From contig NZ_JACHHJ010000001.1 in the NCBI RefSeq assembly GCF_014207655.1, positions 310,001 to 374,000 of the forward strand: a DNA stretch of 64,000 nt, given 5' to 3'. Origin of the DNA: Geomicrobium halophilum. Lineage in GTDB: Bacteria; Bacillota; Bacilli; Bacillales; Marinococcaceae. Shown here piece after piece: positions 57,334 through 60,691 of the stretch. The notes under the pieces were generated by a model. That model searched no databases, was not told the origin of the DNA, and worked only from the letters and a program-made list of their open reading frames with translations. The first letter of the stretch is position 1, and every line of letters starts with the position of its first letter. Made by a program: the position numbers and the translations under genes.

Positions 57334-58812
57334 CTAACGCTTCCTCCCCGTTGCTTGTCTTTTCGAGTCTAGTGGGTGTACGAAAGACGGTCGGTGATTT
57401 TTGTATGGCATTGGCATTCGCAATAAAAGATCGGAAAGTGCTTTCGCATTGAAGGGTAAAAACGGCCACAAGTAAGGCGTATTCAAGATTTTTGTTTTCA
57501 CAAGCATTAAGAAGATGATAAGGCCAATGATCAAAAAGCCGTATAAGGAGAAGAAACCGACAGAAAGAACTAGGGCAATTCGAATCAGAACATTACATAA
57601 CCCTAGTTCATAACTAGGTGTTGCGTATCCGGCCATGGCACTGACGGCTGCATACATCACGACTTCATTCGTAAAAACACCTGTTTCAACGCCAATCTCT
57701 CCGATCAGAATGGCAGCAACAAGTCCAAGGGCTGTTGCCAACGCATCTGGTGTATGAATCGCGGCCATTCTCAGGACTTGTAACCCAAATTCAGCGATAA
57801 GAATTTGCCAAAATATAGGTATGTTAAAATCTTCTTCCACGCCGATGAACCCCCACACGTCTGGTCCTAACGCTTCATTGTCAGCGATTAGAAACCATAC
57901 GGGAAGAAGGAAAATGGAGACAAAAACGGCTAAGAAACGAACCCACCGCAGGAAAAAGCCGACGATCGGCTCTTGCCGGTATTCCTCTGCATGCTGCAAA
58001 TGATGAAAGTAGGTCGTAGGGACAATCATCGCAACATTTGAGCCATCGACTAAAATTAAAACATGCCCTTCCATGAGGTGTACGGCTGCTGTATCGGGAC
58101 GCTCTGTGTATCGTACTTGAGGGAACGGTACCAAACTTTTTTTGATCAGGAATTCTTCGATGGTCTTTTCTGCCATTGGCACCCCGTCAATATCAATGGC
58201 GTTAATTTTCTTTTTTAAACGGCGCATGAGTTCTGGGTCAGCAACATTATCAATGTAGCTGATGACAACGTCTGTTTTCGAGCGGCGACCCACTTGCATA
58301 GGTTCCATAATTAAAGCGGGGTCACGTACTCGGCGTCGGATGAGACCGCTATTAAAGACAAGGGTTTCTACAAAGCCATCTTTGGAGCCGCGGGCAACGC
58401 GCTCCATATCGGGTTCCTGGGGTTCTCGTACGGGGTATTCCCGAACATCCATAAGTATAGCTTCGCTGCATCCTTCTACGATAAGAGCAGCTTGACCGGA
58501 AAGGATTTGCGTTATTAATTCTTCCAGTACATCTTCCCGTTCTAATTCAATGATGGGGATCATGCTTTGTTCCAGTCGTGTAAGGGGGTCTTTTGAAAGT
58601 GCTCCCTCTTCAAGTTTGGACAGATTTTCAATGATTTGCGTCACTACTAAATCATTTGCGAACGCATCGAGGGCATAAAGGGACATCGCCTTGCCCCCGA
58701 AATGATATTCTTGTTCAACAATATCAAAATTTTTATCTACACGGAGTTGTTTCTGTAGTAAGGAGACATTACTTTCATAGTCACTGCCGAGTTTTTTTGC
58801 ACGTTTTCTCAT
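57334..58812 (-). CDS. GerA-family spore protein, SpoVAF-like
   Basis: The 492-residue protein belongs to the GerA/SpoVAF family of inner spore membrane proteins involved in germination. A large hydrophilic N-terminal part (FVETLVFNSGLIRRRVRDP, VHLMEGHVLILVDGS) is followed by five or six helices with HHLQHAEEYRQ before and PYLWPFLPFNAKALSD after. Length and motifs agree best with SpoVAF, and no gerB/gerC-type gene follows. No other spoVA genes are adjacent, so it is an orphan copy. ATG 58812 has AAAGGAGGG upstream. Confidence 0.87.
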   Translation of the reverse strand: MRKRAKKLGSDYESNVSLLQKQLRVDKNFDIVEQEYHFGGKAMSLYALDAFANDLVVTQIIENLSKLEEGALSKDPLTRLEQSMIPIIELEREDVLEELITQILSGQAALIVEGCSEAILMDVREYPVREPQEPDMERVARGSKDGFVETLVFNSGLIRRRVRDPALIMEPMQVGRRSKTDVVISYIDNVADPELMRRLKKKINAIDIDGVPMAEKTIEEFLIKKSLVPFPQVRYTERPDTAAVHLMEGHVLILVDGSNVAMIVPTTYFHHLQHAEEYRQEPIVGFFLRWVRFLAVFVSIFLLPVWFLIADNEALGPDVWGFIGVEEDFNIPIFWQILIAEFGLQVLRMAAIHTPDALATALGLVAAILIGEIGVETGVFTNEVVMYAAVSAMAGYATPSYELGLCNVLIRIALVLSVGFFSLYGFLIIGLIIFLMLVKTKILNTPYLWPFLPFNAKALSDLLLRMPMPYKNHRPSFVHPLDSKRQATGRKR

Positions 58813-58900
58813 AATAACCCTCCTTTCGATCTTTATTGTTTGCACATTGAACACTTACATACGTAAGATAAAGAAAGGATTACGGATTTCAAAAGAATGG

Positions 58901-58929
58901 TTGACAGTATATTTTTCCCTCTGTATAGT
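58901..58929 (+). promoter_or_regulatory. Sigma-A promoter of mgtE transcript
   Basis: TTGACA, 17-base spacer, TATAGT, about 40 bases before the M-box. Confidence 0.8.
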
Positions 58930-58967
58930 CAAAAACGTACCGTGATCGTGCTGATCTATATAATCTC

Positions 58968-59190
58968 GTTAGGTGAGGCTCCTGTATGGAGACATGCTGC
59001 TGCCCAAAAATGTCCAAAGACGCCAATGGGTGAACAGAAATCATCGAGCTAAGGTGATTTTTAATGCAGCTGGCAACGTCCTATGCCATGCAGTGCTAAA
59101 GCTCTACGACGGAGGCGCAAACCTAAGCAAATCGATAGGCTTTGCTTTCTTGCATCAACCGCCTTCCGTTGTTATAAGGCGGTTTTTATG
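58968..59190 (+). ncRNA. M-box (ykoK) magnesium riboswitch
   Basis: The leader contains the conserved M-box elements in order: GTTAGGTGAGGCTCCTGTAT, GGAGACATGCTGCTGCCC, AAAAATGTCCAAAGACGCCA, ATGGGTGAACAG and later GCTCTACGACGGAGGCG. It ends in a terminator stem at 59157-59187 (ACCGCCTT / AAGGCGGTTTTT). Magnesium binding is known to favour the terminator in this class, reducing expression of the transporter downstream. Confidence 0.95.
59157..59187 (+). terminator. Riboswitch-controlled terminator
   Basis: AACCGCCTT and AAGGCGGTTTTT stem with a T-run at the end of the M-box. Confidence 0.85.
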
Positions 59191-59226
59191 ATTGGTAAAG
59201 AAATTGAAAGAGGAGGTGAGGGGCGC

Positions 59227-59334
59227 TTGGTTCCCTGTTCGAGTACCAATGATTCTACAGTCAACATCAACATAGTCTGGCCGCCCCTCACTGTATATGG
59301 GGGACGGCTGGCAGGGAGGGATAAGCGTGGTTAA
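59227..59334 (+). CDS. Candidate leader peptide ORF overlapping mgtE start
   Basis: A TTG codon at 59227 lies seven bases after a near-perfect AGGAGGTGA site and opens a 35-codon frame (LVPCSSTNDSTVNINIVWPP, then LTVYGG...). It ends at TAA 59332-59334, just after the GTG start of mgtE at 59327. The 5' end of this ORF and its middle form a 10-base inverted repeat (GTGAGGGGCG at 59216, CGCCCCTCAC at 59282). The strong ribosome-binding site has no other obvious use. Confidence 0.45.
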   Translation: MVPCSSTNDSTVNINIVWPPLTVYGGRLAGRDKRG

Positions 59335-60691
59335 GTTAAATGAAGAAACTCGTGCTGCCTACAGCCAGTATCTATTAGATTTACTCCAGGATGGAGAAGA
59401 TACGGTCTTTCGTTCAAAGTTCCTTGATCTTCATCCCGTAGATCAAGTGGAAGTTGTTCACCAAATGAAAGAAGAGGACCGCACGCGGTTTTATGCGATT
59501 ATGACGTCTGCGGAACTTGCAGATATATTCGAGGAACTTGAGCTCGAAGAACAAAAGGATATGGCCCTTGAATGGGAAAATGGAAATATGAGTGATGTCT
59601 TTCATCATATGAATGCCGACGATGTTGCGGATTTTCTCGGAGAATTGGAAGAAGAAGAGCGAGAAAACATTTTAACCGGTATGGAAGATGAAGATGCTGA
59701 GGATGTAAAAGAATTACTCGCGTATGAAGAGGAAACAGCCGGCGCGATCATGACAAAGGAGCTCATCCACCTTCATGAAGCTGAAAAAGTCGGCGATGTC
59801 TTAGGGCGGCTGCGTGAGGAAGCGCCTGATGCTGAAATGATTTATTATTTATATGTCGTCGATGAAAGTGAAAAATTAACCGGTGTTGTTTCCTTACGTG
59901 ATCTTATGGTTGCCTCCCTGGACGAGAAGGTGGGAGATGTGATGAGCCGACGCGTTGTTTCTGTTCATGTCAATGATGACCAGGAAAACGTGGCGCAGCT
60001 TATTCAAAAATATGATTTCCTTGCTGCCCCCGTTGTTTCGGCGCATAATCAGCTTTTGGGAATTGTCACCGTCGATGATGTCATTGATGTGTTTGAGGAA
60101 GAAGCAACCGAAGACCTCGCTGAGTTTTCAACAACAAGGGGGGCAACCGACGCGAACATTTCAGCGTTTCAGGCTGCAAGGAAACGTACACCCTGGATCA
60201 TTTTACTCATGTTTTTTGGGATGATTACAGCTGGGATTATTGGTCAGTTTGAAGAAACGCTGGAGCAGGTCGTACTGCTTTCTGCTTTTATTCCGATGTT
60301 GATGGGTTCTGCTGGAAATGTCGGTACTCAGTCTTTGGCTGTTGTTGTCCGAGGCTTGGCGCTTGGCAATTTCGAAAGAAAAGGTCTCTTCCGTGCTCTG
60401 GTCCGGGAATTTGGGACAGGACTCATGATTGGCATTGCCTGTGCGCTGGCTTTATTAGCGATGATTCCCCTATTTTATGATGGCAATCTCTTTTTGGGAT
60501 TCATTGTTGGGTTTTCGATTTTTATATCGCTTGGGATCGCAGCTGTGATCGGATCGATTGTTCCGTTAATTATTAACCAGCTGAATTTGGACCCTGCCAT
60601 TGCTTCTGGTCCTTTTATAACGACGTTTATTGATGTCGTTTCGATCACCATTTATTTCTCCATCGCAACGATGCTGTTGCAGTTTTTATAG
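59327..60691 (+). CDS. mgtE: Magnesium transporter MgtE
   Basis: The 454-residue MgtE-type channel has the acidic N domain (about 20-130, with Glu-rich helices), two CBS domains (about 130-255, with GVVSLRDLM and GIVTVDDVIDVFEEEATEDL), a connecting helix and five membrane helices with the pore motif MGSAGNVGTQS. It imports magnesium and closes when cytosolic magnesium is high. The GTG start has GGAGGG six bases upstream. Control by the M-box upstream supports the assignment. Confidence 0.95.
   Translation: MVKLNEETRAAYSQYLLDLLQDGEDTVFRSKFLDLHPVDQVEVVHQMKEEDRTRFYAIMTSAELADIFEELELEEQKDMALEWENGNMSDVFHHMNADDVADFLGELEEEERENILTGMEDEDAEDVKELLAYEEETAGAIMTKELIHLHEAEKVGDVLGRLREEAPDAEMIYYLYVVDESEKLTGVVSLRDLMVASLDEKVGDVMSRRVVSVHVNDDQENVAQLIQKYDFLAAPVVSAHNQLLGIVTVDDVIDVFEEEATEDLAEFSTTRGATDANISAFQAARKRTPWIILLMFFGMITAGIIGQFEETLEQVVLLSAFIPMLMGSAGNVGTQSLAVVVRGLALGNFERKGLFRALVREFGTGLMIGIACALALLAMIPLFYDGNLFLGFIVGFSIFISLGIAAVIGSIVPLIINQLNLDPAIASGPFITTFIDVVSITIYFSIATMLLQFL

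Follow-up and report, generated by a model that had tools for sequence, protein, structure and literature searches.

Organization of the mgtE Locus

The window (the whole stretch of 64,000 nt of Geomicrobium halophilum DNA analyzed here) contains a magnesium locus in which an M-box riboswitch with an intrinsic terminator, a short leader open reading frame (ORF) and the transporter gene mgtE follow one another (Table 1). M-box membership is supported by a score of 140.1 bits against a gathering score of 44 for the covariance model, by the terminator and by the position upstream of an MgtE gene. A smaller terminator-like site was predicted within the terminator. The promoter-like sequence upstream matches the consensus only, and two such sites were found in the region versus 1.1 expected by chance. 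Upstream of the M-box lies a divergent frame of 506 codons, whose product presumably resembles GerA-type germination proteins; divergent neighbors similar to it by eye were seen at loci L012, L015, L017 and L025.

Table 1. Features of the magnesium locus, in window positions.
Feature	Position	Strand	Basis
Divergent 506-codon frame	57334..58854	-	presumed resemblance to GerA-type germination proteins
Promoter-like TTGACA-17-TATAGT	58901..58929	+	consensus match only, 11/12 positions
M-box magnesium riboswitch aptamer (RF00380)	58958..59121	+	140.1 bits, E 3.1e-32
Intrinsic terminator of the M-box expression platform	59157..59187	+	CCGCCTT / AAGGCGG then TTTTT, read from the sequence
Leader Shine-Dalgarno (SD1), GGAGGTGA	59212..59219	+	anti-SD duplex energy -18.2 kcal/mol
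Arm 1 of the putative SD1-masking stem (region 1), GTGAGGGGCG	59216..59225	+	inverted-repeat search; pairing in relatives
Leader ORF, TTG start, 35 codons	59227..59334	+	N-terminus and frame selected in relatives
Predicted alternative hairpin of region 2 with region 3 (59275-59292 / 59298-59312)	59275..59312	+	fold prediction
Arm 2 (region 2), CGCCCCTCAC, inside the leader ORF	59282..59291	+	complementary to arm 1
mgtE Shine-Dalgarno (SD2)	59313..59320	+	SD match -13.2 kcal/mol
mgtE, GTG start, CBS-domain magnesium transporter	59327..60691	+	Pfam MgtE, MgtE_N, CBS

SD1 stands 7 nt ahead of the TTG start codon (59227–59229) and is the sixth strongest among the 97 leaders described below. The frame it opens encodes MVPCSSTNDSTVNINIVWPPLTVYGGRLAGRDKRG, and the TAA stop codon (59332–59334) overlaps the mgtE start, ending 5 nt beyond the GTG (59327–59329). 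An earlier note, made from the sequence of this stretch, had described a strong ribosome-binding site (RBS) followed by a 35-codon frame overlapping the mgtE start codon, and this description holds to the base. Like MgtL-type systems, this locus has a short ORF with its own SD ahead of a Mg2+ transporter gene. The GTG start lines up with the starts of MgtE homologues; an in-frame ATG at 59297, 30 nt ahead of it, is probably not the mgtE start, because relatives start at the GTG position. Origin from a mobile repeat was ruled out, the 571-nt region occurring once in the genome.

Leader ORFs in Related Genomes

Loci were collected from M-box matches above the cut-off in a comparison set of 61 genomes (27 positive), in which none of the other 60 belongs to the genus of the window, and in 397 genomes of the order (105 positive; one match under the cut-off was left out). 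A search for MgtE in named genomes contributed 8 of its 29 loci, with the M-box found upstream by pattern. This gave 144 oriented loci, 122 of them with MgtE downstream; the 22 without MgtE were moved to a second set. Leaders were chosen by a motif-blind rule, which took the ORF of 12–70 codons with the strongest SD (energy at most −11) and misses weaker SDs.

By this rule, 97 of the 122 M-box/mgtE loci have an SD-led leader ORF; these loci are spread over 13 family labels, 30 genus labels and, in addition, 6 named genomes. The other 25 loci have none (22 with mgtE within 600 nt of the M-box and 3 with it farther away), so the leaders are common, not universal. Since separate loci can belong to the same species (the pairs L027/L037, L036/L070 and L015/L032 look identical and are possible duplicates of this sort), the 92 distinct peptides are the fairer number. 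No leader above the threshold was found at three mgtE loci lacking a pattern M-box (L034, L039 and L044), a small sample. At seven hand-picked loci, no known Rfam family covered the leader (E 0.5); the matches there were the M-box and, elsewhere in two of the loci, a T-box and tRNA.

The leader peptides, 16 to 58 residues long, start alike and differ at their C-termini. Typical starts are MDSSPSPR, MDSSPEPD, MDPSPSPD, MDPDS, MDSDSDSR, MDHPDSR, M(D/E)GDPDN and MDSPHSS. Among the 92 distinct leaders that precede mgtE in the order and the named genomes, 79 (86%) have aspartate or glutamate at residue 2. Of the SD-led ORFs in the window, by comparison, 1 of 23 short and 1 of 21 long ones have an acid there (Fisher's test, p about 1e-13, against a small control drawn from one 64-kb window). 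Prolines concentrate at residues 3 (25%), 5 (53%) and 7 (33%), and arginine is the commonest residue at position 8. An acidic residue and a proline occur together in residues 2–8 at 77 of 97 loci, versus 141 of 1599 windows (8.8%) farther along the same peptides. Many leaders, such as MDSDSDSR and MDSSSR, have acids or serines and few prolines. At 77 of 97 loci, the distance from the leader stop to the transporter start chosen is 11–40 nt. In one genome, whose MgtE start we take to match that of B. subtilis MgtE, the leader is MDSPHSSQSEEVPIYYDSK.

The window leader begins with MVPCSSTND; it has Pro3 and no acidic residue in residues 2–8. An acid is missing from this stretch in 6 of the 97 leaders, the window leader included. 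The N-terminal combination of acid and proline known from MgtL is thus found in the relatives and is missing from the window leader. Four genomes of another genus of the same family have shorter leaders starting with MVPDSS, MVPDST or MVLDSS, with paired arms; the window leader is longer, and its stop overlaps the mgtE start. By these comparisons, the window copy is a diverged one, which appears to have lost the acid and kept Pro3 and a very strong SD. In Natribacillus halophilus (L015 and L032), the closest genome by MgtE (88% identity), no leader ORF was found by the motif-blind rule; mgtE follows about 80 nt after the M-box, and the M-box and a terminator-like stem are kept. This species is a natural comparison strain for a leader-less M-box/mgtE arrangement.

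Selection on the Leader Peptide

Selection was estimated from 149 same-family pairs in 10 families. The pN/pS ratio was 0.42 for codons 2–5, 0.52 for codons 2–9 and 0.93 for codons 10–20; codons 2–8 read in the other two frames gave 1.08 and 0.86. When one random pair per family was drawn, the ratio was 0.58 (5–95%: 0.40–0.80) versus 0.99. Synonymous codons vary at the conserved residues: Pro5 uses all four codons, Asp4 uses GAT and GAC equally, and Ser3 uses both AGY and TCN. Both the ratios and this synonymous variety indicate conservation at the peptide level for the first eight or nine residues and none for codons 10–20. As judged from sequence variation, the conserved part is the acidic/proline stretch of residues 2–8.

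An RNA-level cause of the N-terminal motif, a GGA-N6-TCC mini-hairpin, was considered and rejected: 33 of 97 leaders fit it, and the synonymous codons vary. The importance that the earlier note attached to Trp-Pro-Pro was not supported. These codons lie in the arm that pairs with the SD, and relatives exhibit no peptide selection beyond codon 9; Trp-Pro-Pro was rejected as an arrest motif on the same grounds, given that codons 10–20 evolve without peptide selection in relatives.

Pairing and Folding of the Leader RNA

A 10-base inverted repeat at the start and in the middle of the ORF had also been proposed, and the exact match was confirmed: the arms are 100% complementary over 10 nt, 56 nt apart, and arm 2 covers the Pro-Pro codons and neighboring codons. 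For this locus alone, the pairing is modestly beyond chance (equalled by 5 of 100 dinucleotide shuffles), and the window leader as a whole is no more stable than shuffled sequence, which folds at least equally well in 144 of 200 cases (z = +0.67). The evidence beyond chance comes from relatives.

The proposal that the repeat masks the RBS held in part. Of the transcript prefixes folded, those ending at 59292 and 59300 have the 10-bp stem as their best predicted fold; however, from prefix end 59312 onward it is outcompeted by the predicted hairpin between regions 2 and 3, and it is not the end state (full-length fold −40.2 kcal/mol versus −30.8 kcal/mol with the stem forced). Masking of the RBS would thus be transient in the window species. 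A second inverted repeat (59188–59197/59244–59253; 10 nt, 90%) connects the base of the terminator tail with the early leader ORF and joins the predicted fold once the 5′ boundary is shifted upstream.

Across relatives, the region of SD1 and the start codon pairs with a later segment better than all but a few shuffled sequences in most loci: at most 5 of 100 dinucleotide shuffles were as good in 83 of 97 loci, and 14 loci failed this criterion. In 93 of 97 loci, the partner segment starts past the midpoint of the ORF, in 3 of these beyond the ORF end. A stem 1:2 over the leader SD and start, the arrangement of mgtQ, is accordingly seen in these 83 relatives, and in the window the repeat is present but absent from the final fold. 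Compared with non-cognate arms from other genera, the cognate arm stood at a median 6.7th percentile, with 41 of 97 loci at or below 5%; with one locus per genus, the median was the 6.3rd percentile, and 13.7 of 36 loci on average were at or below 5%. Position −4 relative to the start codon is occupied by G-C, U-A, A-U or C-G pairs or by either G-U type, each found under at least two family labels. The check suggested earlier, a comparison of relatives' mgtE leaders for a conserved ORF and hairpin, thus turned out in favor of both (ORF at 97 of 122 loci, pairing at 83 of 97), with the closest genome lacking the leader.

A four-region arrangement of pairings 1:2 (leader SD), 2:3 and 3:4 (transporter SD) was recognized in several of the minimum-energy folds listed for 27 hand-picked loci. 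Direct pairing of arm 2 with the transporter SD while SD1 is occupied was rejected, since its predicted value exceeded 0.3 at no more than 3 of 97 loci; with SD1 unoccupied, the stretch called as arm 2 is predicted to contact the transporter SD in 13 of 97. For an attenuator test, the stretch between arm 2 and SD2 was shuffled in the 79 testable loci, those in which arm 2 and SD2 are less than 10 nt apart (18 of 97) being left out. The predicted gain in openness of the transporter SD with the leader start occupied had a median of +0.05 versus −0.08 for shuffled sequences; with longer flanks, the medians were 0.00 and −0.09, a significant difference when counted per genus (p = 5e-6, n = 32). 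A value above +0.1, at which the transporter SD is most open with the ribosome at the start, was obtained for 22 of 79 loci, and one below −0.1 for 12 of 79. The direction depends on the 5′ boundary: among all 97 loci, 29 went up and 24 down at −22, and 23 up and 31 down at −40. The modeled attenuator shift is significant but small, and an attenuator with mutually exclusive 2:3 and 3:4 stems is likely for a subset of loci and at most possible for the rest, the window locus included.

At the window locus, the value in this test was −0.32, and in these models the three-state attenuator form is not evident. The predicted accessibility of the mgtE SD rises from 0.28 to 0.54 or 0.82 with a ribosome on the leader (boundaries −22/+25), and this rise shrinks or disappears under other fold boundaries. 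Because the prediction varies in this way, no firm structural conclusion is drawn for the window species.

M-Box Loci beyond mgtE and beyond the Order

The M-box was found in 132 of 398 genomes of the class. The second set joined 109 class loci among the matches listed to the 22 order loci without MgtE, 131 in total; the main gene was identified at 126, and none was found at 5. Main genes were grouped into families by single-linkage BLAST clustering, and Pfam searches with one or two representatives per cluster, for seven clusters, assigned these to CorA (PF01544), Nramp (PF01566), P-type ATPase (the class to which MgtB belongs), ABC permease, MgtC, DUF1003 and MgtE.

Among these listed class matches and non-MgtE loci, an SD-led ORF precedes the main gene at 75 of 126 loci and is absent at 51. 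Of the 74 distinct top-scoring ORFs in the same scope, 60 have an acid at residue 2 and 49 have both acid and proline in residues 2–8. The ORF choice behind these 60 of 74 and behind the 97 of 122 mgtE leaders involved no preference for acid at residue 2. The counts per cluster and at phylum level lean toward the motif, because ORFs with acid at residue 2 were preferred there among SD-led candidates. Counted in this way within the listed class and non-MgtE loci, leaders precede Nramp genes at 24 of 26 loci, CorA at 8 of 28, MgtE at 11 of 28, P-type ATPase at 9 of 19, ABC permease at 6 of 9, MgtC at 1 of 8, DUF1003 at 2 of 2 and others at 1 of 6. Of 62 loci tested for SD-arm pairing, again among the listed class matches and non-MgtE loci, 42 had no more than 3 of 60 shuffles that paired as well.

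At phylum level, 135 of 398 genomes carry an M-box. An SD-led ORF was present at 22 of the 30 loci examined, with acid at residue 2 in 19 and acid plus proline in 13 (under the motif-leaning choice described above); the starts include MDADPEPQ, MDPDPGSS and MDADPDD.

At L202, L216, L223, L094, L062, L276 and L287, an M-box and an acid-2 leader (MDGCSR, MDSSSR, MDADPEPQ and similar) precede a gene for an ABC-type permease. The assignment rests on Pfam (BPD_transp_1) for L202, on resemblance for L276 and L287 and on the BLAST cluster for the others; judging from their genomic setting, these permeases are possible uncharacterized magnesium-linked ABC transporters. The DUF1003 genes at L228 and L233, with Pfam run on L228, are preceded by an M-box and by a leader whose first residues are MDPEPN. 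The CorA leaders L002 and L061, from one genus, start with MGSQNSNEPDPP, in which EPDPP stands at residues 8–12 and not at the N-terminus.

Interpretation and Rival Explanations

The comparison establishes, at the level of sequence, an ORF with a strong SD, peptide selection at codons 2–9 and an acid at residue 2, prolines at 3, 5 and 7 in many members, a covarying stem that would mask the leader SD, and non-random pairing before the transporter SD. With moderate confidence, we read the leader as a ribosome-destabilizing element of the MgtL/MgtQ type that is widespread in Bacillota between the M-box terminator and magnesium-transporter genes. That the ribosome is destabilized, that this depends on Mg2+ and in which direction it acts are carried over from the mgtL/mgtQ principle. 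Acid and proline stand at the same few positions as in those leaders, a stem of the same kind covers the leader's own SD, and a magnesium riboswitch lies upstream; from this we infer the same working principle. The idea of a second, translation-level control layer comparable to the mgtL/corL leaders, put forward in the earlier note for a Firmicute, gains support from the leaders at 97 of 122 loci, the pairings at 83 of 97 and the selected N-terminus.

Under this proposal, the M-box would decide whether the mRNA gets completed. At low magnesium, ribosomes on the first acidic/proline residues would turn unstable or pause, as in MgtL and MgtQ, so that region 1 would stay occupied and region 2 would not be cleared. 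Region 3, which would serve as the anti-SD of the transporter, would then be captured by region 2, leaving the transporter SD open. At sufficient magnesium, ribosomes would run through, the 1:2 and 3:4 stems would re-form, and transporter translation would drop.

Several other explanations were weighed against this destabilization model. A small functional protein acting on the transporter or elsewhere, as MgtR and MgtS do, would account for a selected frame with a strong SD. However, selection is confined to the first eight or nine residues (codons 10–20 at the ratio given above), the lengths range widely and the C-termini differ, and similar starts precede unrelated transporters, which makes this explanation highly improbable. 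Simple translational coupling, in which the strong leader SD merely brings ribosomes near a weakly accessible transporter start and the peptide is irrelevant to magnesium, would fit the overlap of the window leader stop with the mgtE start, the predicted gain in mgtE SD accessibility with a ribosome on the leader and the short leader-to-transporter distance in the 77 loci. It leaves unexplained the selection on codons 2–9 with their acidic and proline residues and the conserved stem masking the leader's own SD, and the accessibility effect in the window shrinks or vanishes with other fold boundaries; as a general account we consider coupling unlikely. Arrest rather than drop-off is, in our estimate, rather unlikely: here pausing governed by EF-P/YfmR or by charged tRNA-Pro would make the leader a sensor of translation-factor or amino-acid state and not of Mg2+ itself. 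Prolines at 3, 5 and 7 suit such pausing, Pro codons are described to matter in mgtL (PMC11552253), and YfmR is reported to relieve stalls at Asp-Pro motifs in B. subtilis (PMC11381351), so a variant governed by EF-P or YfmR is possible. Against it, many leaders keep the acid at residue 2 with few or no prolines, all leaders lie behind a Mg2+ riboswitch (by search design), and in the account of mgtQ it was the acids, not Pro, that mattered (PMC8092293).

For the window copy, a further explanation is that the ORF arose by accident or has decayed and serves no function in this species. The lost acidic residues, the leader-less closest genome and a fold no stabler than shuffles speak for it; the rank of its SD among the 97, the retained arm pair and the acid-bearing leaders with paired arms in four genomes of another genus of the family speak against it, and we consider it quite improbable. 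Within the destabilization model, simple coupling is the more likely variant and the safer reading for the window species, since its leader runs past the mgtE start codon and folding gives no clear sign of the three-state form.

More broadly, and tentatively, with the balance leaning slightly against rather than for it, Bacillota may carry a portable two-sensor module. In such a module, free Mg2+ would be sensed at the RNA level by the M-box, and the Mg2+ status of the ribosome by an acidic/proline leader of the MDSSPSPR type. The combination would stand upstream of genes from five or more unrelated transport families, namely MgtE, CorA, Nramp, P-type ATPase and ABC permease.

The first description of the M-box came from the subtilis group, and the B. 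subtilis mgtE M-box is a textbook transcriptional riboswitch. To our knowledge, destabilization-type Mg2+ sensing is known only from enterics. In a literature search (subscription papers and preprints lay outside it), no paper recognizable as describing leader peptides ahead of M-box-linked genes in Bacillota was found; as far as searched, the element appears undescribed. If M-box leaders also encode a ribosome-destabilizing peptide, a well-studied regulon has a second sensor that escaped notice, and destabilization-type Mg2+ sensing would be general rather than enteric. The ribosome as a physiological Mg2+ sensor outside enterics would then become a directly testable question, as would the way in which RNA-based and ribosome-based sensing combine. 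As a sequence tag, an M-box followed by an M-D-x-x-P leader nominates the uncharacterized ABC permease and DUF1003 genes as magnesium-related.

Comparison with Known Leaders

M-box control of Nramp-type genes has been described before (PMC4072509). The Thioalkalivibrio mgtE motif shares a structured mgtE leader that includes the SD; it differs in being a riboswitch candidate reported exclusively in one genus, and the available text describes no leader peptide (PMC11109978). The M-box uORFs of M. tuberculosis pe20 are likewise small ORFs between an M-box and downstream genes, with a conserved N-terminus (PMC12810186). There, by contrast, the M-box itself is described to control the uORF at translation and through Rho, the conserved proline is at residue 7, and the uORF is presented as mycobacteria-specific (PMC12810186). 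The terms "mgtL" and "destabili-" are absent from the text of that 2026 paper on mycobacterial M-box uORFs (PMC12810186).

In corL of corA, leader translation is described as inverse to transporter expression, and access to the leader SD is fold-dependent, as proposed here; corL has fewer prolines or acids and is Rho-dependent (PMC11552253). The mgtL leader of mgtA in enterics such as E. coli and Salmonella comes nearer in its peptide: drop-off at EPDP (Glu2, Asp4) alters the RNA fold at low Mg2+ (PMC11282234, PMC11552253), and mgtL shares with the present leaders the acid/proline residues 2–5; two exclusive folds and an output that goes up when leader translation fails, known for mgtL, are proposed here. 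However, mgtL is reported to act on Rho-dependent transcription termination (PMC11282234, PMC11552253), whereas here the first layer is the M-box with its intrinsic terminator and the second appears translational.

Salmonella mgtQ is an 8-codon ORF in which Asp2 and Glu5 destabilize the ribosome; this is described to keep region 1 occupied, favor 2:3 pairing and free the mgtB SD from 3:4, and loss of the acids lowers MgtB (PMC8092293). A strong SD and an acid-2 start are common to mgtQ and the present leaders; the alternative stems of mgtQ (1:2 and 3:4 versus 2:3, with the transporter SD hidden in 3:4) and its control at the level of translation (PMC8092293) may have counterparts in a subset of the present loci. 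The differences are that mgtQ has 8 codons, lies inside the mgtC-mgtB operon and is PhoP-driven, with no riboswitch described in that source (PMC8092293), whereas the leaders here have 16–58 codons (mgtE), stand behind an M-box and precede several unrelated transporters. By analogy of design, the closest known system is Salmonella mgtQ, rather than corL or the Rho-dependent step of mgtL.
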